Shown here: piece after piece, positions 10,138 to 59,928 of the stretch
Layout: each line of letters opens with the position of its first letter
Position numbering within the stretch: position 1 is the first letter of the stretch
DNA from: Porphyrobacter sp.
GTDB lineage: Bacteria > Pseudomonadota > Alphaproteobacteria > Sphingomonadales > Sphingomonadaceae
Assembly: GCA_016125555.1 (NCBI GenBank)
Contig: WGLN01000008.1
Span: 1-64,000, forward strand
Length of the DNA: 64,000 nt
Reading direction: 5' to 3'
The notes under the pieces: model-generated
Told to the model about the DNA's origin: nothing
The model's database searches: none
The model's input: the letters and a program-made list of their open reading frames with translations, nothing else
Made by a program: the position numbers and the translations under genes

Positions 10138-10902
10138 ATGGATCTGGGACTGAAGGGCAAGAAGGTCATCATGAACGGCGGGGCGCACGGCCTCGGCCTG
10201 CAGTCCCTCAAGCTGTTCGCCGCAGAGGGCGCGGATGTCGCCTTCTTCAGCCGCAAGGAGGACCGCATCGAGGCCGCCAAGGCCGAGATCGACGCCGCCG
10301 GCCCGGGCAAGGTGTTCGCCGAGGTGTTCGACATGAACACCGGCACCGAGGCCTACCAGGCGTGGCTCGAAAAGGCCGTCAAGGAACTGGGCGGCTGCGA
10401 CATCTTCGTCCACACCGCCAGCGCCTCGGGCACCGGCGGGGCAGGCGACTGGCAGGCCTGCCTCGACATGGATTTGAAGGGCGCGGCCTACGCGGTCGAA
10501 ACGCTCACCCCCTATCTCGAACAGTCGGGCACCGGCTCGATCGTGATGCTGTCCTCCACCGCCGCGCTCGAGACCTTCATCGCCCCCAACCCCTTCAACG
10601 CGATCAAGGCCGCGCTGATCACCTATGCCTCGCAATTGAGCCAGGCGATGGCGCCCAAGGGCATCCGGGTGAACACCGTCAGCCCCGGCGCGATCTACTA
10701 CACCGGCGGCAACTGGGAGGTGATCGAGGAGCACATGAAGCCGCTGTTCGACGCGACCCTCGCCAAGATGCCGATGGGCCGCTTCGGCGAGCCGGTCGAG
10801 GTCGCCAAGGCGATCGTCTTCGTGGCAAGTCCGGCGGTGCCCTACATGACCGGCGCGAACCTCGTGGTGGACGGCGGCTTCACCCAGCGCGTCCAGTTCT
10901 AA
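10138..10902 (+). CDS. SDR family oxidoreductase
   Basis: Rossmann MNGGAHGLGLQSLKLFAAEGADVAFFSR; C-terminal YMTGANLVVDGGFTQRVQF. Confidence 0.88.
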   Translation: MDLGLKGKKVIMNGGAHGLGLQSLKLFAAEGADVAFFSRKEDRIEAAKAEIDAAGPGKVFAEVFDMNTGTEAYQAWLEKAVKELGGCDIFVHTASASGTGGAGDWQACLDMDLKGAAYAVETLTPYLEQSGTGSIVMLSSTAALETFIAPNPFNAIKAALITYASQLSQAMAPKGIRVNTVSPGAIYYTGGNWEVIEEHMKPLFDATLAKMPMGRFGEPVEVAKAIVFVASPAVPYMTGANLVVDGGFTQRVQF

Positions 10903-10930
10903 TCCCCTTCCCCTGAGAGGTTCCAAAAAC

Positions 10931-11899
10931 ATGGCCGAAATCGACCGCGACAAGCTGCTCGACATCTACACCCGCACGATGAAGGTGAACCGCACCGACG
11001 AGAAGTTCCGGGCCCTGCTGATGGAAGGCAAGGTCGCGGTGATGTATTACTGCGTGCGCGGGCAGGAGCTGGTCTCGGCCGCGGCGATGGCGGCGCTCGA
11101 GAAGGACGATTACGTCGTGTGCACCTATCGCGGGCAGGGCGAGCAGACCGCCAAGGGCATCCCGATGGAGAAGTGGTGGGGCGAATGCCTCGGCAAGGCG
11201 ACCGGCACCTGCAAGGGCAAGGGCGGCACCATGCACATCACCGATCCCGAGACGGGGATCATGGTGACCACCGGCGTGGTGGGCAGCGGCCTCCCGATCG
11301 CCAACGGGCTTGCCATGGCGAGCCAGAACAACGGGGATGGCCGCGTGACGCTGGTCAGCTTCGGCGACGGGGCGGCGAACATCGGCGGCTTCCACGAGGC
11401 GATGAACATGGCCCAGCTCTACAAGCTGCCGGTCGTCTTCCTGTGCCAGAACAACCGCTACGGCGAGCACACCGCCTATGCCGACCACACCGACAGCCCC
11501 AACATCGCCACCCGCGCGGCGGGCTACGGGATGCCCGGTGTCACGGTCGACGGCAACGACGTGAACCAAATCTACCCCGCGGTGAAGGAAGCGGTCGACC
11601 GCGCCCGCCGGGGCGAGGGGCCGACGCTGGTCGAGGCGATGTGCTACCGCATGATGGGCCACTTCTTCGGCGCCGACTTCAGCTACATGCCGCCCGAACA
11701 CCTCGCCGAGATGAAGGCCGAGGACCCGCTGCCCAAGCTGCGCAAGGTGATGCTCGAACACCAGTTCACCGAAGAGGAGCTGGACAGCATCGTCGCCGAC
11801 ATTGACGCGCAGATCGACGCCGCGGTCGAGCACGCGCTGGCCGCGCCGCTACCGGACACCGACGAAATCTACAAGGACGTGCTGGAGGAGACCGCCTGA
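10931..11899 (+). CDS. TPP-dependent 2-oxoacid/acetoin dehydrogenase-type E1 alpha subunit
   Basis: TPP-binding GDGAANIGGFHEAMNMAQLYKLPVVFLCQNN; GKGGTMHI; YRMMGHFFGADF. Confidence 0.9.
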   Translation: MAEIDRDKLLDIYTRTMKVNRTDEKFRALLMEGKVAVMYYCVRGQELVSAAAMAALEKDDYVVCTYRGQGEQTAKGIPMEKWWGECLGKATGTCKGKGGTMHITDPETGIMVTTGVVGSGLPIANGLAMASQNNGDGRVTLVSFGDGAANIGGFHEAMNMAQLYKLPVVFLCQNNRYGEHTAYADHTDSPNIATRAAGYGMPGVTVDGNDVNQIYPAVKEAVDRARRGEGPTLVEAMCYRMMGHFFGADFSYMPPEHLAEMKAEDPLPKLRKVMLEHQFTEEELDSIVADIDAQIDAAVEHALAAPLPDTDEIYKDVLEETA

Positions 11900-12885
11900 T
11901 GGCCCAGATCACGATGACCCAGGCGCTGAACCTCGCAATCGACGAGGCGATGGCCGAGGATGACGGCGTGTTCTGCCTCGGCGAGGACGTTTCCGCCAAG
12001 CAGGGCGGGGGCGTGTTCAAGGTCACCCAGGGCTTGACCGAGAAATATGGCGAACACCGCATCCGCGCGACGCCGATCTCGGAAACCGCGATCATCGGCG
12101 CGGCGGTGGGTGCCGCTCTGGCGGGCCAGCGTCCGATTGCCGAGATCATGCTGATGAACTTTGTCGGCGTGTGCATGGACCAGATCGTCAACCACGCGGC
12201 CAAGCTGCGCTTCATGAGCGGAGGGCAGACCCCGTGCCCGATCGTGATCCGCACCACCACCGGCGTCGGAGTCGGCTTCGGCGGGCAGCACTCGGACATG
12301 CTTGAGGCGTGGTTCGCCCATGTCGCGGGCATTCACGTGGTCACGCCGTCGAACCCCGCCGACGCGCGCGGGCTGATGCGGGCGAGCATCGACGCCAACG
12401 ATCCGGTGATCTTCATCGAGAACATCCTGTGCTATGGCCTCAAGGCCGAGGACCCCGGCCCGGGCTACCGCGTCCCGCTCGGCAAGGCCGCGGTGGCGCG
12501 CGAGGGGACCGACATCTCGATCATCACCTATGGCCGCACGGTGCTCGATGCGCTGGCGGTGGCCGAGGACCTCGCCAAGGAAGGCATCTCGGTCGAGGTC
12601 GTCGACTTGCGCACCATCGCCCCCTACGACGAGGCGACCGTGCTCGCGAGCGTGCGCAAGACCGGCCGCGCGCTCACCCTGCACGAAGCCGTGCGCCCCT
12701 TCGGCACCGGCGCGGAACTCGCGGCGAACATTCAGGAAAAGTGCTGGCACGACCTCAAGGGCCCGGTGCGGCGCATCGGCGGGACCTTCTCGGCGGTGCC
12801 CTTCGCCTCGCATCTCGAACAGGCGTGGATCCCGACCAAGCCGCAGATCGTCGAACAGATCAAAGCCGCGATGGGTAAACTCTAG
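11899..12885 (+). CDS. 2-oxoacid/acetoin dehydrogenase-type E1 beta subunit (transketolase-like)
   Basis: FCLGEDVSAKQGGGVFKVTQGLTEKYGEHRIRATPISETAIIGAAVGAALAGQRPIAEIM...GGQHSDMLEAWFAHVAG; start overlaps the alpha stop. Confidence 0.92.
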   Translation: MAQITMTQALNLAIDEAMAEDDGVFCLGEDVSAKQGGGVFKVTQGLTEKYGEHRIRATPISETAIIGAAVGAALAGQRPIAEIMLMNFVGVCMDQIVNHAAKLRFMSGGQTPCPIVIRTTTGVGVGFGGQHSDMLEAWFAHVAGIHVVTPSNPADARGLMRASIDANDPVIFIENILCYGLKAEDPGPGYRVPLGKAAVAREGTDISIITYGRTVLDALAVAEDLAKEGISVEVVDLRTIAPYDEATVLASVRKTGRALTLHEAVRPFGTGAELAANIQEKCWHDLKGPVRRIGGTFSAVPFASHLEQAWIPTKPQIVEQIKAAMGKL

Positions 12886-13116
12886 ATGGCATCCGAAATC
12901 CGCATCCCTAAGCTCGGCATGAGCGCTACCGAAATGACCCTCGTCGAATGGATGTTTGGGCCCGGCGAGCGGGTCGAGAAGGGCGAGATCATCTACACGG
13001 TCGAGACCGACAAGAGCACCACCGAGATCGAGGCGCAGGCCAGCGGGATCATCCATCCCACCGGCGAGGAAGGCGCGGTCTACAAGGTCGGCGATCTCAT
13101 CGGCACGATCGAATAG
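12886..13116 (+). CDS. stand-alone lipoyl (biotinyl/lipoyl attachment) domain protein
   Basis: 76 aa: IRIPKLGMSATEMTLVEWMFGPGERVEKGEIIYTVETDKSTTEIEAQASGIIHPTG...; ETDKS lipoyl-lysine motif, no catalytic E2 domain follows. Confidence 0.9.
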   Translation: MASEIRIPKLGMSATEMTLVEWMFGPGERVEKGEIIYTVETDKSTTEIEAQASGIIHPTGEEGAVYKVGDLIGTIE

Positions 13117-13126
13117 GCGTGCGCCC

Positions 13127-13924
13127 TCAGCCGCGCGCATCGAGCCAGGCGCGGCTGGTGCGGGCGACTTCGCGGGCGCGTTCCTTCAGGTCGGGAAAGG
13201 CCTCGCGCAGGGCGGCCGAGCGTTCCTCGACCGCCAGCGGCAGGTGTGCGGGCAGGGCATCGAGCATTGCCCCCAGGTCCAGCCCGCCTTGCCCGAGCGG
13301 CATCCGCCGGTTGATCGCATCGTCGATGATCGCGTCGAAGTTCGTGAGGTCGGGCGGATCGGCGGGCGCATCGCAGGGTTGGCAATAGGACAGCCATTCC
13401 TGCGGAATCGCCGCAAGGTCCTCCGCCGTCCCGCCCGAGCGCGCCCAGTGCAGCGTATCGACCAGCAGCGCCTTCGCCTCGCCCTCGACCTGCTCGAGAA
13501 TGCCGCGTGCCATGTGGATCGTCTTGACCTCGGTGAAGATCCCGAATTCGAGATTGACCCTGACCCCGGTGCCCTTGGCGCGGTCGACCAGCGTCTGGAA
13601 CTTGGCGGTGGTGGCGGCCGTGTCGGGGTCGGAGGAGACGCACAGCAGGTTCCTGGCCCCCAGTTCGGCGGCGATGTCCACCAGCTGGGCCAGCCATGGA
13701 TCGGGTGGCCCCGGCATGATCCACGCGACCTCGAGGTCGAGCAGTTCCACCCCCGCATCGCGCGCCTGTTGCCGGATCGCGCGGGTGGTGGCGGGCGTCC
13801 ACGTGTCCTTTTCCACCCACATCCCGCCGAAGTCGAAATCGGATCCGGCGGCGCATTCGATGAGCTGTGCCGGGGTCGCCTCGGGCATGATGCCAGCGGC
13901 AAGCGAGATTTTCCGGCGCGTCAC
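13127..13924 (-). CDS. sugar phosphate isomerase/epimerase-like TIM-barrel protein
   Basis: (GTG start) VTRRKISLAAGIMPEATPAQLIECAAGSDFDFGGMWVEKDTWTPATTRAIRQQARDAGVELLDLEVAWI...; AP-endonuclease-2/xylose-isomerase-like; GTGA overlap with the upstream SDR. Confidence 0.75.
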   Translation of the reverse strand: MTRRKISLAAGIMPEATPAQLIECAAGSDFDFGGMWVEKDTWTPATTRAIRQQARDAGVELLDLEVAWIMPGPPDPWLAQLVDIAAELGARNLLCVSSDPDTAATTAKFQTLVDRAKGTGVRVNLEFGIFTEVKTIHMARGILEQVEGEAKALLVDTLHWARSGGTAEDLAAIPQEWLSYCQPCDAPADPPDLTNFDAIIDDAINRRMPLGQGGLDLGAMLDALPAHLPLAVEERSAALREAFPDLKERAREVARTSRAWLDARG

Positions 13925-14673
13925 AGCGTCTGCCCGTCGTCGAGCACGAAGTCGGCTCCGGTGACGAACTCGGCGGCGTCCGAGCACAGGAACAGGATCA
14001 TCGCGTCAAGTCCCTGTTCCTCCATCAGCCGGCGCTTGGGAAAGCGGGCGATCTGCTTCCGGCCTGCTTCGGTGTCGAACCACGCGTCGTTGATCGCGGT
14101 GCGGATATAGCCGGGCGAGACCGTGTTGACGCAGATGCCATGGCGCGCCCATTCGCGCGCCAGCGTCCGGCCCGCCTGCACCACGCCCGCCTTCGACGCG
14201 GCATAGGCGACGAGGCCGGGGGAGGGTTCGAAGGCGGTGATCGAGGCGATCATGACGATGCGCCCGCGCTCGACCTTGTGCGCGATCATCCGCTTCGCCC
14301 CCTCGCGCGCGGTCAGGATCGCACCCTTGAGATTGATCGCCAGCGTGGCTTCGATCTCCTCTTCGGAGATGGTGGTCGCCATGCCCGCGCCGTCGACGCC
14401 GGCATTGGCGATGACCGTGTCGACCGGGCCTGAGGCCGCCTCGGCAGCGTCGAACCCGGCGATGATGTCGGCCTCGCGCGCGACGTCCATCTGAATCGCG
14501 GCGGCATTGGGACCGATCTCTGCGGCAAGCGTCTCGAGCCGGTCCTTGCGCCGCGCGCCCAGAGCCACATGCGCGCCGCTCGCCGCGAGAATGCGTCCGA
14601 AGCGCGCGCCGAGGCCCGAGGATGCGCCGGTGACGAGCGCGGTGCGCCCGGTCAGGTCGAAGGAGAACCCCAT
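13921..14673 (-). CDS. SDR family oxidoreductase
   Basis: MGFSFDLTGRTALVTGASSGLGARFGRILAASGAHVALGAR...YAASKAGVVQAGRTLAREWARHGICVNTVSPGYIRT. Confidence 0.93.
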   Translation of the reverse strand: MGFSFDLTGRTALVTGASSGLGARFGRILAASGAHVALGARRKDRLETLAAEIGPNAAAIQMDVAREADIIAGFDAAEAASGPVDTVIANAGVDGAGMATTISEEEIEATLAINLKGAILTAREGAKRMIAHKVERGRIVMIASITAFEPSPGLVAYAASKAGVVQAGRTLAREWARHGICVNTVSPGYIRTAINDAWFDTEAGRKQIARFPKRRLMEEQGLDAMILFLCSDAAEFVTGADFVLDDGQTL

Positions 14674-16228: not shown

Positions 16229-16765
16229 ATGGCGCTGGACGGCAAGATTGCGGCTTTGGGCGAGGTGATGCAGCTGGCCTTCGTGCCCGAGGACTTCGAC
16301 GCGGCGGTGGAGCACTGGACGCGGGTGATGGGCGTCGGGCCGTTCTTCCTGATCGAGAACATCCACCTGGAAGGCATGAAATATCGCGGCCAGCCCACGC
16401 AAGCGGTGTTCGACCTCGCGCTCGCCTATTGGGGCGACATCCAGGTCGAGCTGATCCGTCCGAAGGACGATTACCCCTCGATCTATCGCGGCGAATACGG
16501 CTCCACCGGCAACGGGCTGCACCACGTGTGCATCCTGGTGGACGACCTCGCCGAAGCGCGCCGCGTGTGCGAGGCCGAAGGGGCCGAGGTGGTGATCGAG
16601 GGCCGCTTCGGCACCAGCGAGGTGATCTATGTCGATCCCGGCACCGGTCCGGGCACGCTGGTCGAGATTCTCCAGCAGGCCAAGGAGGGGCCGGACCTGT
16701 TCGGGATGATCAAGGCGGCAGGCGTGGGCTGGGACGGGAGCGAGCCGTTGAGGCGGCTGGGGTAA
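16229..16765 (+). CDS. VOC (glyoxalase/epimerase fold) family protein
   Basis: LAFVPEDFDAAVEHWTRVMGVGPFFLIENI...NGLHHVCILVDDLAEARRVCEAEGAEV...YVDPGTGPGTLVEIL. Confidence 0.8.
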   Translation: MALDGKIAALGEVMQLAFVPEDFDAAVEHWTRVMGVGPFFLIENIHLEGMKYRGQPTQAVFDLALAYWGDIQVELIRPKDDYPSIYRGEYGSTGNGLHHVCILVDDLAEARRVCEAEGAEVVIEGRFGTSEVIYVDPGTGPGTLVEILQQAKEGPDLFGMIKAAGVGWDGSEPLRRLG

Positions 16766-16899: not shown

Positions 16900-17709
16900 T
16901 CAATCGCTCGCTCCAAGGTATCCGAGCTGCCCGGCCTTGAAGATCGTCTGCGCGCGGTTGACGCTGTCGAGCTTCTCGCCTGCGCGGTGAATGTGGTAGC
17001 GGATCGTAGCGTGCGACCGGTTGAGGATCATGCTGATCTCCTTGTCGGTCTTGCCGATCGCCGCCCAGCGCAGGCACTCGACCTCGCGCTTGGACAGCAC
17101 GCAGTCCGAGGGGATGCGCCGCTTGGTGCGGTTGGCCTGGACGTAGCCGGCGACGAAGCAGCGCGTCACCATCGCGAAAAGCGCGCCATATTCGGCGAAT
17201 TCGGCCGTCAGGTCTTCCTTCTCGCGGTCCATCGAAATGAAGCTGCTGGCGGAAATCTGGCCGAAGGGCAGGTGCACCGGAATGACGATCGCCGCTTTGC
17301 ACAGCGCGCGGCGCTCGAAGTCGGCGAGGTCGATCTCGTCGAGATAGGAATTGCGCCAGCGGGTGTTGAAGCCGTGCTGGTTGACCCAGAAGGGTTCGCT
17401 CTCGTAGCGGCAGGCGCGCGGCAGCGGCGAATGCAGCGCGAGGCGGTGATCCTCCCACCAGCGCGCGCCGTCGTCGAGCCAGCGGAAGATGTCGGCATTG
17501 AGGATCGTGCCGTCGGCATCGACCATCGGTTCCTTCGAGGAAATGTCGTCGCACACCGCGATCTGCATTCCGCGTTCCTGGGCGATTCGCGCGAGGTTGA
17601 CGGCGGCATCGTGAATGTCCTCGGGACAGGTGATGGTCACCTGTTCGAGAAGTTGTTCAAGCGATTCACGACCTTGCGGCGTCCGCAGCTCGACAACATT
17701 ATGGGCCAT
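16900..17709 (-). CDS. LuxR family transcriptional regulator
   Basis: C-terminal HTH: LSKREVECLRWAAIGKTDKEISMILNRSHATIRYHIHRAGEKLDSVNRAQTIFKAGQLGYL; N-terminal ligand-binding-like domain. Start trimmed to MAHNVVELR. Confidence 0.88.
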   Translation of the reverse strand: MAHNVVELRTPQGRESLEQLLEQVTITCPEDIHDAAVNLARIAQERGMQIAVCDDISSKEPMVDADGTILNADIFRWLDDGARWWEDHRLALHSPLPRACRYESEPFWVNQHGFNTRWRNSYLDEIDLADFERRALCKAAIVIPVHLPFGQISASSFISMDREKEDLTAEFAEYGALFAMVTRCFVAGYVQANRTKRRIPSDCVLSKREVECLRWAAIGKTDKEISMILNRSHATIRYHIHRAGEKLDSVNRAQTIFKAGQLGYLGASD

Positions 17710-17841: not shown

Positions 17842-19461
17842 ATGCAGTTTGCGGGCGCGAATTTCGGGGTGGCGCTGAAACGGCTCGCGCAGGCGATCCC
17901 GCCCGATCGGCCCGCGCTGGTCCACGGGGACCGGGTGGTGCGCTGGGGCGAACTCGACGCGGTGACCGATGGGATCGCGGCGGGCCTCGCTGCGCGCGGC
18001 TTGCAACCGGGCGACATCGTCGGCCAGATGCTGCGCAACACGCCGGAATACCTGCTCGCGTGGTTCGGCTGCGTGAAGGCCGGGCTGGTGCCGGTCAACG
18101 TCAACTACCACTACAAGACCCGCGAACTGGCCGACATCTTCGCGCGCTTCGGCCTGAAGGTGCTGTTCGTCGAGAGCGACTTCGCCGAACTGGCGGGCGA
18201 GGCGATCCCCGAGGGCGCGCTGACGGTGGATGTGGGCGGCGCGGAGTGGGCGGCGCTGTGCGAGACCGACCTGCCGGAAGGCTTCGCCATCCACGACGAC
18301 CGCGAGGCGCTGTTCCTCACCGCGACCGGGGGCACCACGGGGATGCCCAAGGCGGTGATGTGGCCGATGGTCGAAGCCTGGGCCGCGTTCGGCATCGGCG
18401 TGTGGCAGCAGGGTCCCGGCAATCCGCCGCTGGTGACGACCTCGCTCGACGAGCAGGCCGAGCGGGCGGCGGCGATCGGCCCCGATCATCCGGCAAGCAC
18501 TTCGCCGCTGCTGCTGCTCTCCCCGCTGATGCACGGGGCGGGGCAGTTCACCGGATTGATCCACCTGCTGAAGGGCGGCACGCTAACGCTGCTGCCTGCG
18601 CCGAAATTTGACGCCGATCTTGCGCTCGACGAGGTGAAGCGGCTGGGCGCGCGGGGGCTGTTCATCGTCGGCGACGCCTTCGCCCTGCCGCTCGCCGACC
18701 GGCTCGATGCGCGGGGAGACGGGGCCGAGGTGCTGGCGTCGCTGCGCTCGATCACCTCCTCGGGCGCGGTGTTCTCGCCTGCCCTGAAACAACGGCTGAT
18801 CGCGCATCATCCCGCGCTGATGATCGTCGATGCGCTCGGCTCCTCGGAGAGTTCGGGTACGGGCATCGTCGTCACCACCGCGCAGGGCTCCACCGGCGGA
18901 GGCAAGTTCCAGCCGCTGCCGGGCCGCGAGACCAGGCTGTTCGACGAGAACCTCAAGGAAATCCCGCCCGGCGCGGAAGGCGTCGGCATCGTCGCGCGCA
19001 CCGGGCCGCTGCCGCTGGGCTATCTCGGCGAGGACGAAAAGAACGCGGCAACCTTCCCGGTGATCGACGGCAAGCGCTGGCTGATGACCGGCGACCGCGC
19101 GCGCTGGGCGGCGGACGGGAGCCTCGAATTCATCGGCCGCGACAACATGTGCATCAACACCGGCGGCGAGAAGGTCTTTCCCGAGGAGGTCGAGGCGGTG
19201 CTGATGGCGCATCCGGCGGTGCATGATTGCCGCGTGGTGAGCCTCCCCGATCCGCGTTTCGGGCGCAAGGTCGTGGCGGTGGTGCAGCCCGAGGGCGACG
19301 AGAAGGACGGGCTGGAAGAGGCGCTCGATACCCATGCCCGCGCAGGGCTGGCGGGCTACAAGATCCCGCGGCTCTACGTCTTCAGCAGTCGCTCGCTCAG
19401 GCTCAACAACGGCAAGCCCGACTACAAGACCGCGCAGGCACTGGCGGACGCGGCGGGGTAG
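17842..19461 (+). CDS. AMP-dependent acyl-CoA synthetase/ligase
   Basis: AMP-binding LFLTATGGTTGMPKAVMW; LMTGDRARWAADGSLEFIGRDNMCINTGGEKVFPEEVE; NNGKPDYK C-terminal Lys motif. Confidence 0.93.
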   Translation: MQFAGANFGVALKRLAQAIPPDRPALVHGDRVVRWGELDAVTDGIAAGLAARGLQPGDIVGQMLRNTPEYLLAWFGCVKAGLVPVNVNYHYKTRELADIFARFGLKVLFVESDFAELAGEAIPEGALTVDVGGAEWAALCETDLPEGFAIHDDREALFLTATGGTTGMPKAVMWPMVEAWAAFGIGVWQQGPGNPPLVTTSLDEQAERAAAIGPDHPASTSPLLLLSPLMHGAGQFTGLIHLLKGGTLTLLPAPKFDADLALDEVKRLGARGLFIVGDAFALPLADRLDARGDGAEVLASLRSITSSGAVFSPALKQRLIAHHPALMIVDALGSSESSGTGIVVTTAQGSTGGGKFQPLPGRETRLFDENLKEIPPGAEGVGIVARTGPLPLGYLGEDEKNAATFPVIDGKRWLMTGDRARWAADGSLEFIGRDNMCINTGGEKVFPEEVEAVLMAHPAVHDCRVVSLPDPRFGRKVVAVVQPEGDEKDGLEEALDTHARAGLAGYKIPRLYVFSSRSLRLNNGKPDYKTAQALADAAG

Positions 19462-45876: not shown

Positions 45877-46424
45877 CCCAGCCAGTGCCGCATCGCCGCC
45901 GTCGAGGGATCGCGTTCGTCATGGTAACCCGCCGCGCCCTCGGGCGTGTCGGACAGGTCGACGCCCTCCACCACCCGGAACTCGCGCCAGTCGTAGAGGC
46001 CGGTGCGCTGCGCCAGCCGCCACTCCGCCCCGTTCGGGCCACCCCGCTTCTCGAAGCGGTCGACATAGCGCCCTGCGACGATCGCCGAGTAGACCATGCC
46101 CTTGTCGGGAAACACCGCCGCCAGCGGGTAGCCGGGCGGGATGGTGTGCATCGCGGTCATGTAGGTTTCGGTGTGGCAGGTGTCCGCGCCCTCGAACCCG
46201 AACAGGGTCTGCCCCAGCTGGTGCTGGGTCGCGAGGCAGGGGTCGATAACGCTGCGCGCCTGCTCGACGAAGTCGCGCCAACCGCCTTCGATCACCCCGA
46301 AACGGAAGGTCGCGTCATCATGGAACAGGCGCTCCATCATCCCCCAGCGCCGCCGATCGATGGCATGGGCATAGGCGGCGAGGATGTCGCGGATCGCCTC
46401 GCGGTCTTCAAGCGTCCCTGTCAT
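45873..46424 (-). CDS. SnoaL/NTF2-like protein
   Basis: MTGTLEDREAIRDILAAYAHAIDRRRWGMMERLFHDDATFRFG...GRYVDRFEKRGGPNGAEWRLAQRTGLYDWREF. Confidence 0.88.
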   Translation of the reverse strand: MTGTLEDREAIRDILAAYAHAIDRRRWGMMERLFHDDATFRFGVIEGGWRDFVEQARSVIDPCLATQHQLGQTLFGFEGADTCHTETYMTAMHTIPPGYPLAAVFPDKGMVYSAIVAGRYVDRFEKRGGPNGAEWRLAQRTGLYDWREFRVVEGVDLSDTPEGAAGYHDERDPSTAAMRHWLG

Positions 46425-48505: not shown

Positions 48506-48508
48506 TTG

Positions 48509-49487: not shown

Positions 49488-49594
49488 GCGGTCACGGATA
49501 CGCAGAGATGTGTCTCTTTTCCACCCACGAGCGGTCACAAGCAACAGCCGCCGAACTTCCCGAAAGCGGTCGTTCCAGACGCGGCCGTGAACCC

Positions 49595-50957: not shown

Positions 50958-53501
50958 TCAGAACTTGAAGCTGGCCTCGACGAAGACCTGGCGCCCGCGG
51001 TTCTGGGTCATGATGAAGTCGTCGCCCACCCCCGGCTCGAGGAACGGCCGGCCCCCGGTGGTGATGGTGTAGATCTTGTCGGTGATGTTCTGCCCGATCA
51101 GCGAGAGCTTCCACTTGCCGTCGGGGTCGCCGACCGAGACGTTGGCGTCGAGCAGCCAGAAGCTCGGCTGGACGTAGTCGTTGAGCGAGGTCTCGTCGGT
51201 GATGTAGCCATCATTGTAGGCCGCGTTGCCCGACAGGAACAGCTCGAGTCCGTCGCTGATCGGGATCGACCAGTCCGCCGCGATGTTCCCCGACCATTCG
51301 GGCGACTGGCTGGCGCGGCGCCCGTTGAGGTCGACAAAGCCGCCCTGGCCGCCCGGCTGCAGGAACTGGTCGGTGTACTTGGCATCGAGATAGGACAGGT
51401 TGGCGGTGAGGTTCAGCCCTTCCACCGGGGTCCGCCAGCGGGATTCGAGATCGACGCCCTTGGTGGTCAGCTCGCCCGCGTTGCTGGTGATGAACTGCAC
51501 CGTCACCGCGTTGAAGTTCTGCACCTGCAGATCGGTGAACACGTAGTAGAAGGCGGTCGCGTTGAAGGTGAAGCTGCGCCCCGCCCACTGCGACTTGAAG
51601 CCGACTTCACCGCCCTTGGCCTTTTCCGACTTGAAGATCAGCGAGCTGAAATCGCCCGTGGCGGCCGCCTGGCTGAGGCTGTTGGACGGCAGCGCCGAGT
51701 TGTCGATCCCGCCCGACTTGAAGCCGGTCTTGTAGGAGGCGAAGAAGTTGATGTCGTCGGTCGCCTGGTAGCGCAGCGTGACTTCTGGCGAGAAGTTGTC
51801 GTCGTTGAAGTTGATCGGCCCCGAGAAATAGCCGCTCTGCAGGAAGGCCGGGCTCGGCAGGAAGGTCCCCGGGTTGTTGGGATCGGGGACATAGGCCAGC
51901 AGGTTGTGGACGTAGGGCACCGAGATGGTCTGCACCTTGCTTTCGTCCGTCCAGCGCAGACCGCCCGACAGCTGCAGCTGATCGGTCAGGTCGATGCTCA
52001 CGCTGCCGAAGAAGGACAGCGCCTCGGTCTTGGTGAGGTGGGTCTTGTCCCAGTCGTAGGTGTAGCCCGTGCCCTGCGCGATGCCGCCGGGGTTGATGGG
52101 CGAATCCGGCGAGATCGGCAGGCTCGGGTCGGGCCCGAGGAAGGAGATGTTCACGCCCTGCTGCGCGGTGTCGAAGGTGAAGGTGCGGTCTTCGTAGAAC
52201 GCGCCGAGCATGAAGTTGAACGGCCCGTCATAGTCCGAGGCGAGGCGCAGTTCCTGGCTGTATTGCTCGAGCTTGTTGATCGGGTCCGAAGACCCCGCGC
52301 CGCCCGGCAGGAAGGTGCCGTTGGGGCCGGGGAAGCGGCCGCCGTAGGAATAGCTGTCGAAGTCGACCGCATCGAGGTTGAGCAATCCGCTCACCGAGGT
52401 CAGCTTGAGCGCGTCGTTGAGATCAAGCTCGAACTGCAACCGGCCGAACCAGATGTCGGTCTTGCCGAAGGGCACCCCGTTGCGCCCGGCCGCGGCCGAG
52501 GGCAGCGGCACGCTGGCGGCGAGCGGCGCGGCGGCATCGGTGAGGTAGTAGCGCTGGTCGTAGACGTTGCAGTCGTAGCCCGCCGGGATCTGCAGGCCGC
52601 CCTGCAGCAGGTAGACCGAATCCGCCACCCCGTTGGCGCCGCAGTTGACCTCGGCGGTGCCGATCGCCCCGTCGTTCTCGTTGCGGGTGTATTGCAGCTT
52701 GAAATTGGCGTGGAATCGGTCGGTCGGCTGCCAATCCAGCGTGCCGCGCACGATCAGGTCCTTCAGCCCGCGCTTCTGGTTCACCGCGGGGGTGTTGTCC
52801 TGCAGCAGCTGGAACTCGTCGATGTCGTTCCACTGCGCGGCAAGGCGCACGCCGAGCGTGTCGGTCACCGGGCCGGAGATGTAGCTGCTGAGCAGATAAC
52901 CCTTCTCTTCGAACTCCCACGAGGCACGCCCGCCGATCTCCCAGTCGGGCGTCGGGTTGGCCGAGCGCAGCGACAGCACGCCGGCGGTCGCCGATTTGCC
53001 GAAGAACAGCGATTGCGGGCCGCGCAGCACGTCGACCTGCTCGACGTCGAAGAAGCCGGCCTGCACCATGCGCATGGTCGAGACGATCACCCCGTCATAT
53101 TCGAATGCGACCGCCGAATCGAAGGCCGCCGAGATGTTCGACGAGCCGACGCCGCGCAAGCTGAGCTGGCCGCCCGAACCCGAGCCGCCGACCTGCACGT
53201 TGAGCGTCGGCACGCGGCTGGTGATGTCGGCGACCTGGTCGATGTTGTACTTGTCGAGCGTGTCGCCGCCGATCGCGGTGACGGTGACGGGAACCTCCTG
53301 CAGGGTCTCGTTCTGGCGGCGTGCCTGGACGATGATGACCGGCTCCGCATTGCGGGCCTGGTCGTCTGCGCCGGCATCGTCCTGGGCATGGGCGACGCCT
53401 GGCAAGGCGAGCACCCCGGTGAACGCCGCGCCGCTCATCAGGACTGTCCGCAGGCCGCTCGCACGGGCGCGGGATGCAATTCGGGCATCAAGTTTGGTCA
53501 T
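50958..53501 (-). CDS. TonB-dependent receptor
   Basis: Signal peptide, EPVIIVQARRQNETLQEVPVTVTAIGGDTLDKYNIDQVADITSRVPTLNVQVGGSGSGGQLSLRGVGSSNISAAFDSAVAFEYDG...; C-terminal QVFVEASFKF. Confidence 0.94.
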   Translation of the reverse strand: MTKLDARIASRARASGLRTVLMSGAAFTGVLALPGVAHAQDDAGADDQARNAEPVIIVQARRQNETLQEVPVTVTAIGGDTLDKYNIDQVADITSRVPTLNVQVGGSGSGGQLSLRGVGSSNISAAFDSAVAFEYDGVIVSTMRMVQAGFFDVEQVDVLRGPQSLFFGKSATAGVLSLRSANPTPDWEIGGRASWEFEEKGYLLSSYISGPVTDTLGVRLAAQWNDIDEFQLLQDNTPAVNQKRGLKDLIVRGTLDWQPTDRFHANFKLQYTRNENDGAIGTAEVNCGANGVADSVYLLQGGLQIPAGYDCNVYDQRYYLTDAAAPLAASVPLPSAAAGRNGVPFGKTDIWFGRLQFELDLNDALKLTSVSGLLNLDAVDFDSYSYGGRFPGPNGTFLPGGAGSSDPINKLEQYSQELRLASDYDGPFNFMLGAFYEDRTFTFDTAQQGVNISFLGPDPSLPISPDSPINPGGIAQGTGYTYDWDKTHLTKTEALSFFGSVSIDLTDQLQLSGGLRWTDESKVQTISVPYVHNLLAYVPDPNNPGTFLPSPAFLQSGYFSGPINFNDDNFSPEVTLRYQATDDINFFASYKTGFKSGGIDNSALPSNSLSQAAATGDFSSLIFKSEKAKGGEVGFKSQWAGRSFTFNATAFYYVFTDLQVQNFNAVTVQFITSNAGELTTKGVDLESRWRTPVEGLNLTANLSYLDAKYTDQFLQPGGQGGFVDLNGRRASQSPEWSGNIAADWSIPISDGLELFLSGNAAYNDGYITDETSLNDYVQPSFWLLDANVSVGDPDGKWKLSLIGQNITDKIYTITTGGRPFLEPGVGDDFIMTQNRGRQVFVEASFKF

Positions 53502-53697: not shown

Positions 53698-55002
53698 TCA
53701 CGAAGCCATCGCGGCGTGCTCGCGCTCCATCTGGGAGAGGCGCGGCTCGGCGGGCCACACCCACTCCGGTCCGATCACCGGCTCGGCCCGGAGGTCCTCG
53801 GGCACGCGCCCGGTTCCGATCATCGCATCGAGGCTCTGGTGGAAGGCATAGATCCGCGCCTCCTGGTTTGACAGCGGCACCGAGCGGAACGCGGCCGATT
53901 GCATCGCCTGCTGGATTGCCTCGCCGAACTGGGTGTCCTCGAGGATGATCGGGCTCATCCGCCGCCCGTTTGGCTGCGAGGCATCCGGCACGGTCCACAG
54001 GTCGGGCGCGGGCGCGTCGCCCCAGTCCAGTGCCATGGTCACCAGCTCGAGCCGGGTGGTGGTCAGCGAGGTCGGCCAGAACACCAGCGGCGGGACGAAG
54101 TAGTTGGACAGCGGGCTGACCCAGTTGGGGAACAGCGTGTAGCTCTGGGTGCAGGTGCGGCCGAGCTCGCCGACGCTGTCGATCTGCTGCCAGCCGGGCG
54201 GGGAATCGATCGCGCGCACGTGCTCGCGATTGGTCTGGCGCGGCGGCGGGGCGAGCATCCGCGCGTGGCCGTTGGGATAGAGCGTGTTGAGATTGCGGGT
54301 CGAATCCACCAGCGGCGCGACCGTGTCGGGGTGGATGAAGGGAACATGGTAGACCTCCATGTTGGCCTCCATCGCCACCTTCCAGTTGCACTGGAGGTCG
54401 AAGCTGTGCCGCGCCGCGAGGCGGATGCGGCCAAAGGCGAACTCCTCCCACTCGCGCGCCAAAGGCCCAAGCCAGTCGAGCAGCGGCATGGCCTCGAGGT
54501 CGAAATTGACGAAGATGACCTTGCCGAAGAGCTCGCAGCGGACTGGCAGCAGCCCGCGGCACGACAGGTCGAAATCCGCCGGGAAGTCGCGCCGCTCGGG
54601 CACGCCCACAAGGCTGCCGTCGGTCTTGTAGGTCCAGTTGTGATAGCTGCACATCAGGCGGCTGGACTTGCCGCTGTCCTCGGTCACCACCGGCGCCCCG
54701 CGGTGGCGGCAGGAATTGTGGAAGGCGCGCACCACCCCGTCCATGCCGTGCACGATCACCAGCGGATCGCCGGCATTGTGCCAGCGCATCCAGCACCCCG
54801 GCTCGGGCACTTCATCGAGGTGTCCGGCGAACAGCCACGACTTGCGGAACACGTGTTCCTGTTCGAGCGCGAAATATTCTGGCGAAGTGTAGCGCGCGGC
54901 GGGCAGGTCGGGCAGCGCGGGGAACCCCTGCGGCGGGGCGGTGCGCGTGCCTTCCCATTCCATCAGCGCCTTGAGCATCGCGATCTCTTGCGCGTCCATC
55001 AT
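53698..55002 (-). CDS. Rieske non-heme iron oxygenase, alpha subunit
   Basis: Rieske motif NSCRHRGAPVVTEDSGKSSRLMCSYHNWTYKTDGSLVGVPE; EANMEVYHVPFIHPDTV. Start trimmed to MMDAQEIAML. Confidence 0.93.
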   Translation of the reverse strand: MMDAQEIAMLKALMEWEGTRTAPPQGFPALPDLPAARYTSPEYFALEQEHVFRKSWLFAGHLDEVPEPGCWMRWHNAGDPLVIVHGMDGVVRAFHNSCRHRGAPVVTEDSGKSSRLMCSYHNWTYKTDGSLVGVPERRDFPADFDLSCRGLLPVRCELFGKVIFVNFDLEAMPLLDWLGPLAREWEEFAFGRIRLAARHSFDLQCNWKVAMEANMEVYHVPFIHPDTVAPLVDSTRNLNTLYPNGHARMLAPPPRQTNREHVRAIDSPPGWQQIDSVGELGRTCTQSYTLFPNWVSPLSNYFVPPLVFWPTSLTTTRLELVTMALDWGDAPAPDLWTVPDASQPNGRRMSPIILEDTQFGEAIQQAMQSAAFRSVPLSNQEARIYAFHQSLDAMIGTGRVPEDLRAEPVIGPEWVWPAEPRLSQMEREHAAMAS

Positions 55003-55129: not shown

Positions 55130-55909
55130 ATGGCGGGAAGGGTCGCGGGCAAGGTCGCGCTCGTCACGGGCGGGGCGATGGGGCTGGGCAAGGCCGATTG
55201 CGAGGCGCTGGCGCGCGAGGGCGCCACGGTGATCGTCACCGACCGCGAGGTCGAACTGGCGCACAAGGTCGCGGAGGACATCGGGGGCGACGCCCTGGCG
55301 CTCGACGTCACCCGCGAGGACCAGTGGATCGAGGTGATGCGCGCGGTGAGGGAGCGCCACGGCGGGCTCGACATCCTCGTCAACAATGCCGGCAACGTGA
55401 TCTTCGAGAGCATCGAGGAGTGCAGCCTCGCGCACTTCAAGCTGCATCTCGACATCCACGTGGTCGGCACCTTCCTCGGGTGCAAATACGCCGTGCCACT
55501 GATGAAGCACCGGCACGAGAAGGTGGGCGGGGGCGGCTCGTCGATCGTCAACATGGCCTCGACCGCAGCCTTCCTCGGCTATGGCAACATCCCCGCCTAT
55601 GCCGCGTGCAAGGCGGGGATCGCGGGGATGACCCGCAGCCTCGCGATGGATTTCCAGGACAAGGGCTACGGCATCCGCGTCAATGCGCTCGCGCCGGGCG
55701 GGATAGAGACCCCGATGGTGATGGGCGTCTCGGGCCGGGCGGGGCAGGCGCCGATGGCGATCCCCGAAGGCCCGCTGCCCGCCGATGCGCTCGGCGCGCC
55801 GAAGGACGTGGCCGGCTGCGTGCTGTTCCTCGCCTCGGACGAGGCGCGCTTCCTCAACGGGCTGACGATCCCGGTGGACAATGGCCTCACCGCGCGTCCC
55901 CATCATTAA
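55130..55909 (+). CDS. SDR family oxidoreductase
   Basis: MAGRVAGKVALVTGGAMGLGKADCEALAREGATVIVTDREVELAHKVAEDIGGDALALDVTRE...YAACKAGIAGMTRSLAMDFQDKGYGIRVNALAPGG. Confidence 0.93.
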   Translation: MAGRVAGKVALVTGGAMGLGKADCEALAREGATVIVTDREVELAHKVAEDIGGDALALDVTREDQWIEVMRAVRERHGGLDILVNNAGNVIFESIEECSLAHFKLHLDIHVVGTFLGCKYAVPLMKHRHEKVGGGGSSIVNMASTAAFLGYGNIPAYAACKAGIAGMTRSLAMDFQDKGYGIRVNALAPGGIETPMVMGVSGRAGQAPMAIPEGPLPADALGAPKDVAGCVLFLASDEARFLNGLTIPVDNGLTARPHH

Positions 55910-57206
55910 GGGGCGCCCCACCGAGCCCGGGGCCGAGGCGCCGGGGGCCTACCGATGGTACGTCCTCGCGCTGCTGACGCTGACCAGTGCCTTCAGCGTC
56001 GCCGACCGGCTGGTGTTCGGCATCCTCGTCGAGGACATCAAGGCCGAGTTCGCGCTCAGCGATCTCCAGCTCGGGCTCCTCGGCGGGCTGGCCTTCAGCC
56101 TCGTCTACGTGCTCGCCGGCTTTCCCGCCGCGCGCCTTGCCGACCGCTCGGTGCGCAAGAACATCGTCGCCGCGGCGATCACCTTCTGGAGCGTGATGAC
56201 CGCGGCCTGCGGGCTTGCCGCCGGGTTCTGGACGCTCTTCGCCGCGCGCACCGGCGTCGGGGTGGGGGAGGGCTGCTCGGGCCCTTCCTCGCAGAGCCTC
56301 GTCGCCGATTTCTTCGCCCGCGGCGAGCTCGCCAAGGCGATGGGCTTCCTTACCATCGGGGCGAGCATGGGGACAGCCGGCGGCCTGCTGATCGGCGGGC
56401 AGCTGGCCGAGATCTTCAACTGGCGCTGGGCCTTCGCGCTGATGGGCGTGCCGGGCCTGCTGCTGGGCGGCCTCATCTATTTCACCGCGCGCGAGCCGCT
56501 GCGCGGGCGCTTTGCCCCGGCGGGGACCGACATGGCGCAGCGCCCGCTGGGAGAGACGATCCGGAGCCTCACGGGGAACCGCGTGTTCATGGGGCTGGCG
56601 CTGGGCTGGGCGGTGCAGATCATGATCGGCTATGCGCTGGCCTTCTGGATGGCGGCGGTGATGCTGCGCCAGTTCGCGGTCTCGACCGGCGAGGTCGGCA
56701 TCTGGCTGGGCCTGACCTTCTTCCTCGGCGGCATCCCGGGGCCGATCCTCGGCGGCTACGTCACGCAGTGGCTGTGCAAGCGCGACGAGCGCTGGCGGGC
56801 GTGGCTGCCCGGCGCGGTCAGCCTTGGCTGCGTTGTGCCGCTGGCGCTGAGCCTGTCCTCCAGCGATTTCGGGGTGTTCCTGGGCTGGTTCGGGGTGGCC
56901 TACGCGATCTACGTCGCCAGCCAGGCGGGGATCCTGTCGGGGATACAGGCCGCGGTCGAACCGGCGAGCCGCGGCTTCGCGGTCGCCATCGCGCTGTTCT
57001 TCAACAACCTTGTCGGGCAGGCGCTGGGCCTTGCGGTGATTGGCGCGGTCAGCGACGCGCTGGCGCCCAGCCGCGGCGAAAGCGCACTGGCGCTGGCGGT
57101 GTTCGGCGTGTGCCTTGCCTCGGGCCTGCTGGCGATGGCGGTGTTCGCCTGGACCGCCGCGCAGATGGGGCCGAGCGGCTATCTGGCGAAGATGCAGGGC
57201 GATTAG
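55881..57206 (+). CDS. MFS transporter (Spinster-like)
   Basis: YRWYVLALLTLTSAFSVADRLVFGILVEDIKAEFALSDLQLGLLGGLAFSLVYVLAGFPAARLADR...; about 12 hydrophobic segments. Start uncertain because it overlaps the SDR by 29 bp. Confidence 0.9.
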   Translation: MASPRVPIIKGRPTEPGAEAPGAYRWYVLALLTLTSAFSVADRLVFGILVEDIKAEFALSDLQLGLLGGLAFSLVYVLAGFPAARLADRSVRKNIVAAAITFWSVMTAACGLAAGFWTLFAARTGVGVGEGCSGPSSQSLVADFFARGELAKAMGFLTIGASMGTAGGLLIGGQLAEIFNWRWAFALMGVPGLLLGGLIYFTAREPLRGRFAPAGTDMAQRPLGETIRSLTGNRVFMGLALGWAVQIMIGYALAFWMAAVMLRQFAVSTGEVGIWLGLTFFLGGIPGPILGGYVTQWLCKRDERWRAWLPGAVSLGCVVPLALSLSSSDFGVFLGWFGVAYAIYVASQAGILSGIQAAVEPASRGFAVAIALFFNNLVGQALGLAVIGAVSDALAPSRGESALALAVFGVCLASGLLAMAVFAWTAAQMGPSGYLAKMQGD

Positions 57207-57215
57207 AAGCGCCGT

Positions 57216-57995
57216 CTAGAAGCCGGGATGGATCGATAGCGCCGCGCCGTCGACCAGCATCTCGGCCCCGGTCATGAAGGGGCATTCGTCGCTGGCGAGG
57301 AAGGCGATCGCAGCGGCGGTCTCCGCCGGATCGGCGAGGCGATTGAGGGGCGAGGTCGCGGCCACCGCCGCCATCAGCCCCGGCATGTCCTGCTCCGCCG
57401 CGTCGAGAATGCCGGTATGGGTCGCGCCGGGGATCACCGTGTTGCAGCGGATCGCGAGCCCCTGCTTGGCGCACCATGTCGCGACCGATTTCGACAGCAT
57501 TCTGACCGCGGCCTTGCTCGCCGAATAGCCGACATCGGTCGGCAGCGGAGCGATCGCGGTGGTCGAGGCGATGTTGACGATCGCGCCTTTCGCGCCGCCG
57601 GGGTTCTCCCGCATCGCCGCAATCGCCGCGCGGCAACCCGCCATGGTGCCGGTGAGGTTGACCGCCAGCACCCGGTCCCACGCGGCGAACATCGCCTCGT
57701 CCTCGAGGTCGCCGATCCCCGCGCCCGAGACCATCCCGGCATTGTTGACGAGGATGTCGAGCCGCCCGAAGCACTCCACGGCCTCGCCCACGATCTGCGG
57801 CCACAAGGCGCGGTCGGAGACGTCCTGCACGGCGAAGCGCGCGCCGACCTCCTCGCACAGCGCCCGGCCTGCCGCCGCGTTCACGTCGGTGCCGAACACC
57901 CGCGCCCCGTCCGCGACGAAGCGCCGCAGGGTCGCCGCGCCGATCCCGCTCGCGCAGCCGGTGACGATCGCGACCTTCCCGGAAAGGTCGGGCAT
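57216..57995 (-). CDS. SDR family oxidoreductase
   Basis: MPDLSGKVAIVTGCASGIGAATLRRFVADGARVFGTDVNAAAGRALCEEVG...YSASKAAVRMLSKSVATWCAKQGLAIRCNTVIPGATHTG. Confidence 0.93.
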   Translation of the reverse strand: MPDLSGKVAIVTGCASGIGAATLRRFVADGARVFGTDVNAAAGRALCEEVGARFAVQDVSDRALWPQIVGEAVECFGRLDILVNNAGMVSGAGIGDLEDEAMFAAWDRVLAVNLTGTMAGCRAAIAAMRENPGGAKGAIVNIASTTAIAPLPTDVGYSASKAAVRMLSKSVATWCAKQGLAIRCNTVIPGATHTGILDAAEQDMPGLMAAVAATSPLNRLADPAETAAAIAFLASDECPFMTGAEMLVDGAALSIHPGF

Positions 57996-57996
57996 C

Positions 57997-58644
57997 CTAT
58001 TCGGCCTCTTTCCAGATTGCGGCGCAGGCGCGCTGGTTGTGGGTGTCGACGAAGCGCGCAAGGTTGTCGGTGCCCTCGGGCAGCTTCCAGCCCACGGTGA
58101 AGCCGAAATTCGCAAAGGCGAAGATCATCAGATCGGCAAAGGTGAAGCGCCCCAGCGCGATGTGGTTGCTGCCGCCCAGAAACGCGTCGAACATCCGCCA
58201 CTTCTCGTCCGCCATGGCCGAGAGTTCCGCCCCCGCCTCGGGCGAGACCACCGCCATGCGCGGCTCGAACATCGGGCGGCCCGCGCCGGCGCGGAAGCCC
58301 ATCGTCATCGGCACCACCACTTCCTGATCGAACAGCCGCGCCCACTTGCGCACCGTCGCGCGCTCCACCGGGGTCTCGCCGAACAGGTTGGGCTCGGGAT
58401 GCATCTCCTCGATATATTCGCAGATCGGCCAGCTTTCGGTCAGGCAAGTGCCGTCGTCGAGTTCGAGCGTCGGGGTGGTCCCCATCGGGTTCTTCGCGAC
58501 GTAGGCGGCGTCCTGGCGGTTCTCGCCGGTGATGATGTCGTAGTGCACCCGCTCGAAATCCCGGCCTTCCTCGAGGTCCTTTTCGACCATGAACATGCGC
58601 ACCAGGCGCGGGTTGGGGCCGAGGCTGGAATGGAGCTTGGTCAT
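57997..58644 (-). CDS. glutathione S-transferase family protein
   Basis: NPRLVRMFMVEKDLEEGRDFERVHYDIITGENRQDAAYVAKNPMGTTPTLELDDGTCLTESWPICEYIEEMHPEPNLFG. Confidence 0.92.
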   Translation of the reverse strand: MTKLHSSLGPNPRLVRMFMVEKDLEEGRDFERVHYDIITGENRQDAAYVAKNPMGTTPTLELDDGTCLTESWPICEYIEEMHPEPNLFGETPVERATVRKWARLFDQEVVVPMTMGFRAGAGRPMFEPRMAVVSPEAGAELSAMADEKWRMFDAFLGGSNHIALGRFTFADLMIFAFANFGFTVGWKLPEGTDNLARFVDTHNQRACAAIWKEAE

Positions 58645-58758
58645 GCGTCTCTCCCGGATGTGATTTTCGCGCGAAACTCTATGCGGCAGGGGGCTTGCGC
58701 GCCAGCCTCACAAATGCGCTAGGGGACGGCAAAGCCACGACAGGGGATGGAGCCGGCC

Positions 58759-59928
58759 ATGAACTTCCAGCTGACCGACGAGCAGCGCGAGCTGCAGGAA
58801 ACCGCGCGCAAGTTCGCGCAGAAAGAGCTGCCCGCGCTGGCGCGCGACATGGAGGAAAAGGACTACCCCGTCCCGCACGACATGCTGCGCACCTATGGCG
58901 ATATGGGCTTCCTGGGCGTCAACCTGCCGGCCGAATATGGCGGCCTCGGCCTCGGCCATCTCGAGGCGCTGCTGGTGCTCGAGGAATTCGCGAAGATCTC
59001 CAACGCGGTCGCCTTTCCGGTGTTCGAAGCCCTCGTGGGCCCGGTGCGCACCATCGACAAGTTCGGCTCGGCCGAAATGAAGGCCAAGGTGCTTCCCGAA
59101 GTGATCCGCGGCGAGAAGGTGGTCGCGGTCTCGATGTCCGAACCCGACGCGGGGACGGCGCTCACCGATCTGAAAACCCGCGCGGTGCTCGACGGCAACC
59201 ACTATGTCGTCAACGGCTACAAGCGCTGGACCTCCGGGGGCGGGCATTCGGACTACTACGTCACCTATTGCCGCTTCACCGACGAGCCCGGCGCCAAGGG
59301 CATCGGCGCGATCCTGCTCGAGAAGGACCTGCCCGGTATGCAGTTCGGCAAGCGCGAGGAGCTGATGGGCTTCCGCGGCATCGCCACCGCCGACTACGCG
59401 ATCGAGGATGTGCGGGTGCCCGCGGAGAACGTCATCATCGGCGCGGGCGGCTTTGCCAAGCTGATGAGCGCCTTCGGATTGGAGCGCTGCGGCAATGCCA
59501 CCCAGTCCTTGGGCGTGGCGGCCGCAGCGCTGGAGGCCGCGACCCAGTATGTCCAGGAGCGCGAGGCCTTCGGCAAGCCGATCGTCGAGTTCCAGGCGGT
59601 GCAATTGAAGATCGCCGAGATGGCGATGAAGGTCGAGGCCGCGCGGCTGCTGATCCACCGCGCCGCCGCCAATGCCGCCCACCAGCCCGACGGGCTGCCG
59701 ACCGTCTACGAAAGCTCGGTCGCGAAATGCTACGCCAACGAGATCGTGCGCGAGGTGGCGGCGATGGGCATGCAGGTGATGGGCGGCTACGGCTATCACA
59801 AGGACTACGGCATGGAGCAGCGGCTGCGCGATGCCTATGCCTGGGGCATCGCCGGCGGCTCCATCGACGTGCAGAAGACCAACATCGCCGCATCGCTGGT
59901 GGGCCGCCGCTTCGACCAGCGCCGCTGA
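58759..59928 (+). CDS. acyl-CoA dehydrogenase
   Basis: MNFQLTDEQRELQETARKFAQKELPALARDMEEKDYPVPHDMLRTYGDMGFLGVNLPAEYGGLGLGH...MGMQVMGGYGYHKDYGMEQRLRDAYAWGIAGGS. Alternative ATG at 58747. Confidence 0.94.
   Translation: MNFQLTDEQRELQETARKFAQKELPALARDMEEKDYPVPHDMLRTYGDMGFLGVNLPAEYGGLGLGHLEALLVLEEFAKISNAVAFPVFEALVGPVRTIDKFGSAEMKAKVLPEVIRGEKVVAVSMSEPDAGTALTDLKTRAVLDGNHYVVNGYKRWTSGGGHSDYYVTYCRFTDEPGAKGIGAILLEKDLPGMQFGKREELMGFRGIATADYAIEDVRVPAENVIIGAGGFAKLMSAFGLERCGNATQSLGVAAAALEAATQYVQEREAFGKPIVEFQAVQLKIAEMAMKVEAARLLIHRAAANAAHQPDGLPTVYESSVAKCYANEIVREVAAMGMQVMGGYGYHKDYGMEQRLRDAYAWGIAGGSIDVQKTNIAASLVGRRFDQRR

Follow-up and report, generated by a model that had tools for sequence, protein, structure and literature searches.

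A tRNA-associated catabolic island of Porphyrobacter with a recurrent LTP thiolase, DUF35 and E1-lipoyl core

The window analysed here, 64,000 nucleotides of contig WGLN01000008.1 from a Porphyrobacter sp. genome (assembly GCA_016125555.1), carries a genomic island of ~48 kb with ~50 catabolic-type genes (g10–g59, ~10138–58644; Table 1). We read the block as an island that serves the aerobic breakdown of a single hydrophobic compound, an alicyclic and probably isoprenoid acid or ketone, and give this reading a probability of about 0.5. Within it lies a core module that recurs in relatives around orthologues of g25, an LTP/SCP2-type thiolase-fold enzyme with an unusual set of active-site residues. 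A vaguely described catabolic island is thereby turned into a defined, deletable module for which specific predictions of active site and product (isobutyryl-CoA) can be made.

The gene inventory was made from gene calls and Pfam and NCBIfam scans of positions 10138–59928, the stretch that the first-pass annotation of this DNA had described as a dedicated catabolic island. All enzyme counts given there proved correct: three Rieske oxygenase alphas (g16, g53, g55), three P450s (g28, g40, g41), eight short-chain dehydrogenases/reductases (SDRs; g10, g15, g21, g24, g37, g38, g56, g58), three medium-chain dehydrogenases/reductases (MDRs) of the CurA/ADH_N_2 type (g31, g33, g51), three acyl-CoA dehydrogenases (g22, g27, g60) and two CoA ligases (g19, g48). 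The scans also recovered the LTP thiolase g25 with the DUF35 protein g26, the KstD-like g39, the TonB receptor g54, the MFS transporter g57, the E1/lipoyl genes (g11–g13), the molybdopterin enzyme g32 and the two ThuA proteins (g23, g30) that it had listed. Beyond that list we found five NTF2/SnoaL-like proteins (g29, g36, g43, g44, g50), two ABM proteins (g35, g42), two small VOC proteins (g17, g47), a LuxR regulator (g18) and MobA-like (g34), CMD-like (g45), thioesterase (g49), NmrA (g52) and GST (g59) proteins; g20 (19605–20342, membrane-protein-like) and g46 (42892–43272) had no Pfam or NCBIfam match. Overall, g10–g60 are almost wholly catabolic, with housekeeping genes in the flanks (ribF, folA, purK, purE, gpm, tRNA-Thr; bPH_2 proteins). 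The density of oxygenases is above chance, as 3 of the 6 P450s and 3 of the 5 Rieske alphas of the genome fall in ~1.6% of its 3.07 Mb.

The block is present in some members of the genus and absent from others, and it lies at a tRNA. In two otherwise collinear congeners that have no LTP gene (G042 and G122), g1–g6 and tRNA-Thr are followed by g60–g63 and the island is absent. The gap between tRNA-Thr and the g60 orthologue is <100 bases in G122; in G042 it is ~1.9 kb and holds one homologue of an island gene (the SDR g15, 81%; L283 ~15500), which suggests a trace of island loss. Because g60 follows tRNA-Thr almost directly in these island-less congeners, it belongs to the backbone, so that the catabolic island stood as proposed while its right boundary did not: the end is at ~58644 and not at 59928. 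Another congener (G181) has nearly the whole g10–g59 block at one site between g6 and g61; g10 adjoins g6 there, and g7–g9 are therefore outside the block in that genome. The gene order of the island is kept in ~40 contigs, mostly of Erythrobacter/Porphyrobacter, and the relatives with g39 at 85–89% identity, which are Erythrobacter and Porphyrobacter by name, keep the order g28–g52. A dedicated island for a hydrophobic substrate, kept as a unit, is supported. Both genera occur commonly in marine and freshwater habitats, and many of their species have the block. The GC content is even over the window; none of the scanned genes matched an integrase or transposase family. A mobile element with att repeats was considered and rejected, no repeat of ≥13 nt of the tRNA-Thr end being present elsewhere in the window. 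Between tRNA-Thr and the island (5717–10029) are a TonB receptor (g7), an Lrp-type gene (g8) and an alanine dehydrogenase gene (g9), all three missing from this place in G181.

The core was delineated in windows of ±20 kb around 36 LTP orthologues (>60% identity) within the family, and consists of the LTP thiolase, DUF35, PimC/PimD acyl-CoA dehydrogenases, E1-alpha/beta, a lipoyl domain or full E2, LuxR and ThuA. DUF35 was found near all 36 orthologues, PimC near 33, LuxR near 32, PimD near 31, ThuA near 28, and E1-alpha and E1-beta near 26 each; a CurA-like MDR accompanied 26 and the Rieske protein g16 accompanied 21. A homologue of E1, E2, ThuA or g18 was present near 0 of 20 paralogous LTPs (~31–36% identity), mostly inspected in narrower windows (Fisher p 6e-8 and 8e-9). 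As lipoyl component, 14 related clusters have a full-length E2 and 13 have the 76-aa domain; the window has E1 and lipoyl genes and no E2 catalytic domain. The genome encodes two further E1-alpha-like proteins, from which the E1-alpha g11 is distinct (35% and 31% identity). The E1/lipoyl system, the ThuA proteins and the Mo enzyme had appeared as ill-fitting parts; since relatives also combine them with the LTP thiolase, they are part of the island system. The core is widely shared, by alphaproteobacteria of several families and by plasmids. Beyond the family, a sample of 289 genomes of the class yielded 10 more with LTP orthologues (62–69% identity), and E1 was present in 4 of 9 LTP neighbourhoods among them. 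A related core (SARO_RS18605–18680) is carried by plasmid pNL2 of the laboratory model N. aromaticivorans DSM 12444, and the module or its Novosphingobium form also by ES2-1 p1, Croceicoccus pCME4A9I and plasmids of N. humi and N. capsulatum. On pSA2 of N. resinovorum the LTP gene stands with an acyl-CoA dehydrogenase and a phosphotransferase and has no adjacent E1, and the same holds for Rhodococcus plasmids.

The closest solved relatives of g25 are BbsAB and the SCP2 thiolases; BbsA is the DUF35 partner in the benzoylsuccinyl-CoA thiolase BbsAB. Alignment of g25 with BbsB and SCP2 thiolases showed that the nucleophile C79 is kept, whereas Q281-D-T-E takes the place of HDxF/NEAF and G-E331-P that of GHP, so that the catalytic histidines of these enzymes are Gln and Glu in the g25 orthologues. 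The combination Cys79, Gln281 and Glu331 (C/Q/E) was found in 52 of 52 homologues (36/36 family orthologues and 16/16 others, including Rhodococcus and Mycobacterium proteins at 48–61%). Paralogous control LTPs mostly read H/H, N/H, Y/E or Y/Y; three read C/Q/E, and the signature is thus not exclusive to the g25 clade. Two familiar assignments were rejected: a classical thiolase has Cys and two His, both of which are replaced here, and an Ltp2-type aldolase has no Cys and a Tyr/Tyr active site. In the core ThuA protein g23 the invariant residues are H90, E153 and H208-C209-R210-G211-H212.

A clue to the product came from valine-branch genes near the module in three relatives. An alphaproteobacterium of another family (G466) has a contiguous same-strand run of CoA ligase, DUF35, LTP, MDR, acylating aldehyde dehydrogenase, acyl-CoA dehydrogenase, 3-hydroxyisobutyryl-CoA hydrolase and MmsB; the 96-kb plasmid of N. 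humi combines the module with MmsA, acyl-CoA dehydrogenase, 3-hydroxyisobutyryl-CoA hydrolase, enoyl-CoA hydratase and MmsB; and G058 has an MmsA homologue (76%) and an N. humi-like acyl-CoA dehydrogenase (73%) within 20 kb. These genes suggest isobutyryl-CoA as a product of the module, from which an isopropyl or gem-dimethyl group, as in terpenoids, would follow for the substrate. An alicyclic or terpenoid-like substrate, as had been proposed, is plausible. In the window's genome MmsB is encoded elsewhere, outside the island.

We propose that the substrate would be taken up by the TonB receptor and the MFS carrier and hydroxylated by the P450s and Rieske oxygenases, the alcohols being oxidized by SDRs. 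The KstD-like enzyme and the CurA-like MDRs could add or remove double bonds in ring and side chain, the NTF2-fold proteins could dehydrate or isomerise, and the CoA ligases would activate the acid, after which the product would enter the conserved lower module. There, the dedicated E1-lipoyl system may convert a 2-oxo acid into a CoA ester or cleave an alpha-ketol, a heteromeric PimC/PimD-type dehydrogenase would desaturate a hindered acyl-CoA, and LTP-DUF35 would make or break a C-C bond beside a branched carbon; isobutyryl-CoA would probably be among the products. Ordinary beta-oxidation stalls at a quaternary or gem-dimethyl carbon. A bolder version, which we advance tentatively and consider unlikely as it stands, is a new lower pathway for quaternary/gem-dimethyl compounds, in which the Cys/Gln/Glu thiolase and DUF35 release isobutyryl-CoA, fed by a ThDP-lipoyl system in which the lone lipoyl domain of Erythrobacter replaces E2.

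Several findings weigh against a single isoprenoid pathway. The valine-branch link was seen in 3 of ~45 neighbourhoods, a small count that chance proximity to a normal valine operon could explain, and the run in G466 could itself be such an operon of the host. LTP homologues of Rhodococcus/Mycobacterium occur without E1, so the two enzymes need not catalyse a common reaction; the composition of the core differs among genera; and the windows around the paralogous control LTPs were mostly ±10 kb against ±20 kb around the orthologues. In addition, a stilbene-type carotenoid oxygenase is present in the cluster of four relatives (G001, G091, G096 and G158) and may indicate an aromatic or otherwise different substrate. 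An aromatic or phenylpropanoid (stilbene, lignan-like) target, with which the Rieske oxygenases and the sphingomonad background would agree, is nevertheless improbable: the family scans identified no ring-cleavage dioxygenase in the island, the Erythrobacter version lacks the lignostilbene-type gene, and the KstD-like enzyme with multiple alkene reductases fits alicyclic ketones better. The redundancy of the enzymes (two CoA ligases, and three each of the Rieske alphas and P450s) could also be read as several unrelated pathways at one site, that is, a core (~g10–g33) and separate oxidation modules (g35–g43, g48–g59) for different substrates. The Novosphingobium assortment differs (g24–g26, g52, g14, g55, g39, g33), and several relatives have the core without g39–g59. 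We consider this on the unlikely side, since the order g28–g52 is kept across Erythrobacter species and G181 has nearly the full set together.

Steroid catabolism, with an igr-style degradation of a sterol or bile-acid side chain and ring degradation by the 9,10-seco pathway, appears distinctly improbable, although g39, the CYP142/125-like P450s, the PimD/IpdE2-like acyl-CoA dehydrogenase and the LTP-DUF35 pair would suit it. Family searches of the 99.99%-complete genome gave no match to KshA_C (PF19298) and no two-domain extradiol dioxygenase of ~300 aa (HsaC type) among 17 PF00903 (VOC) matches. The only long VOC protein (376 aa) reads as a 4-hydroxyphenylpyruvate dioxygenase (HPPD), and no IpdAB-type CoA transferase was found, the only CoA_trans proteins being a SCOT-size pair of 240 and 216 aa that lies outside the island; the names HPPD and SCOT come from sequence reading. 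The canonical steroid ring pathway, which the first-pass annotation's steroid-like substrate had brought up, was thus rejected; a modification of the steroid side chain alone is possible. Steroid degradation is known from Sphingomonadaceae (PMC12882949, PMC8540908), and an igr-like operon for the steroid side chain occurs in Caenibius tardaugens (PMC12882949). The island resembles the igr operon (cyp125-fadE28/29-chsH1/H2-ltp2) in that LTP and DUF35 share one block with paired (heteromeric), here PimC/PimD-like, acyl-CoA dehydrogenases and with a P450 whose closest solved relatives are CYP142/125. It differs in that no MaoC domain (ChsH1/ChsH2-type hydratase) was found among its proteins, DUF35 (g26) stands alone, the LTP reads Cys-Gln-Glu instead of Tyr/Tyr, and E1-lipoyl, ThuA and Mo enzymes are added.

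Other known systems match in part. Acetoin and branched-chain 2-oxoacid dehydrogenases (AcoABC, BCKDH) likewise have E1-alpha, E1-beta and lipoyl/E2 in one operon, but the Erythrobacter E2 is a 76-aa lipoyl domain without an acyltransferase domain, and the island genes are linked to the LTP thiolase and acyl-CoA dehydrogenases. The flavoprotein g39 scored 431 bits against the ChcC1 model (cyclohexanecarboxylate aromatisation) and 425 bits against the KstD model (3-ketosteroid delta1-dehydrogenases), far under the equivalog cut-offs of 1000 and 789; its closest solved protein is 7p18, a 3-oxosteroid 1-dehydrogenase. The affinity of the P450s g28 and g40 to CYP142/125 means closest-solved-relative similarity only, and the paired acyl-CoA dehydrogenases are PimC/PimD-like. 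In agreement with the earlier failure to name a textbook cluster, no characterised pathway was matched in the libraries and papers searched: the literature searched for ThuA, LTP, Novosphingobium and isobutyryl-CoA/gem-dimethyl contained no characterised counterpart, and no function of the Erythrobacter/Porphyrobacter block turned up.

Table 1. Features of the island and its site. The last column gives the number of the 36 orthologous LTPs near which a homologue was found.
Feature	Coordinates	Strand	Basis or remark	LTPs (of 36)
tRNA-Thr(GGT)	5396..5470	+	ARAGORN, Rfam; backbone landmark of island site	
g10 SDR, operon with E1	10138..10902	+		12
g11 2-oxoacid dehydrogenase E1-alpha	10931..11899	+	PF00676	26
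g12 E1-beta	11899..12885	+	PF02779/PF02780	26
g13 stand-alone lipoyl domain, 76 aa, ETDKST motif	12886..13116	+	PF00364	
g14 AP_endonuc_2/sugar-isomerase-like TIM barrel	13127..13888	-	family scan	
g15 SDR	13921..14673	-	family scan; homologue alone at island site in G042	
g16 Rieske oxygenase alpha, 475 aa	14679..16106	-		21
g17 VOC protein, weakly epimerase-like	16229..16765	+		20
g18 LuxR-family regulator	16900..17568	-		32
g19 acyl-CoA ligase	17842..19461	+	family scan	
g21 SDR, 2,4-dienoyl-CoA-reductase-like	20355..21257	-	family scan	
g22 PimC-like acyl-CoA dehydrogenase	21269..22477	-		33
g23 ThuA protein, core	22532..23287	-		28
g24 SDR	23289..24062	-	family scan	
g25 LTP/SCP2-type thiolase-fold enzyme	24059..25222	-	C79/Q281/E331 signature	
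g26 DUF35 OB-fold partner	25219..25644	-	PF01796	36
g27 PimD/IpdE2-like acyl-CoA dehydrogenase	25656..26738	-		31
g28 P450	26744..27985	-	closest solved relatives CYP142/CYP125	
g29 LEH/SnoaL NTF2-like protein	28074..28451	-	family scan	
g30 second ThuA protein	28448..29212	-	family scan	
g31 MDR, CurA-like alkene reductase	29212..30222	-	family scan	
g32 Fe4S4/molybdopterin oxidoreductase	30247..32388	-	PF00384	
g33 MDR, CurA-like	32510..33514	+	family scan	
g34 MobA-like nucleotidyltransferase	33511..33903	-	frame continues upstream through LAGGxxxRFGSDKA motif	
g35 ABM protein	34017..34358	-	family scan	
g36 SnoaL_4 protein	34363..34773	-	family scan	
g37 SDR	34901..35713	+	family scan	
g38 SDR	35786..36562	-	family scan	
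g39 KstD/ChcC1-like flavin dehydrogenase	36665..38284	+	family scan	
g40 P450	38281..39564	-	family scan; closest solved relatives CYP142/125	
g41 P450	39663..40973	+	family scan	
g42 ABM protein	40973..41374	+	family scan	
g43 SnoaL_4 protein	41371..41886	+	remote BaiE/LinA/scytalone dehydratase similarity	
g44 SnoaL_2 protein	41888..42241	-	family scan	
g45 CMD-like + g46	42362..43272	+	family scan	
g47 VOC protein	43269..43787	-	family scan	
g48 acyl-CoA ligase	43789..45381	-	family scan	
g49 4HBT thioesterase	45469..45876	+	family scan	
g50 SnoaL_4 protein	45873..46424	-	family scan	
g51 MDR	46421..47422	-	family scan	
g52 NmrA-like protein	47558..48505	+	family scan	
g53 Rieske oxygenase alpha	49595..50824	-	family scan	
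g54 TonB-dependent receptor	50958..53438	-	family scan	
g55 Rieske oxygenase alpha	53698..55002	-	family scan	
g56 SDR	55130..55909	+	family scan	
g57 MFS transporter	55881..57206	+	family scan	
g58 SDR + g59 GST, right island end	57216..58644	-	family scan	
g60 acyl-CoA dehydrogenase	58759..59928	+	backbone, after tRNA-Thr in island-less congeners	

The carotenoid oxygenase of the relatives, of the lignostilbene-dioxygenase clade, lies beside g32/g48 homologues (L126:7466–8923, with equivalents in G091, G096 and G158). An apocarotenoid pathway based on this RPE65-family gene was set aside: as lignostilbene dioxygenases are its nearest relatives and Erythrobacter versions lack it, the gene is not decisive. 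Abscisic acid and tomatidine pathways were also dropped; no link was shown, and a keyword search of PMC10653915 gave no mention of thiolase or acyl-CoA genes.

Near the LTP gene, 12–13 related clusters have a pair of APH-type kinase and acyl-CoA dehydrogenase (e.g. L158:11764–12837) that recalls 4-hydroxyacyl-CoA degradation. The g39 orthologues of Sphingorhabdus/Parasphingorhabdus have neighbours that read as CaiB-, hydantoinase- and lyase-like, as judged from their sequence starts alone; g39 is therefore not bound to a single pathway. In the whole genome PF00384 matched only g32 and one 675-aa frame on contig C3 (NuoG-like by size), and in G460, of another family (L257), two g32-like molybdopterin frames are directly beside the LTP orthologue. 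The MobA-like g34 adjoins g32–g33; in 33511–34020 it has no ATG, GTG or TTG start ahead of its N-terminal motif and the frame continues upstream (LSILGAILAGGQARRFGSDKA), so that its start is likely non-standard or altered. Finally, ~1.1 kb inside the island (48506–49594) is without a called gene and has a lower GC content.

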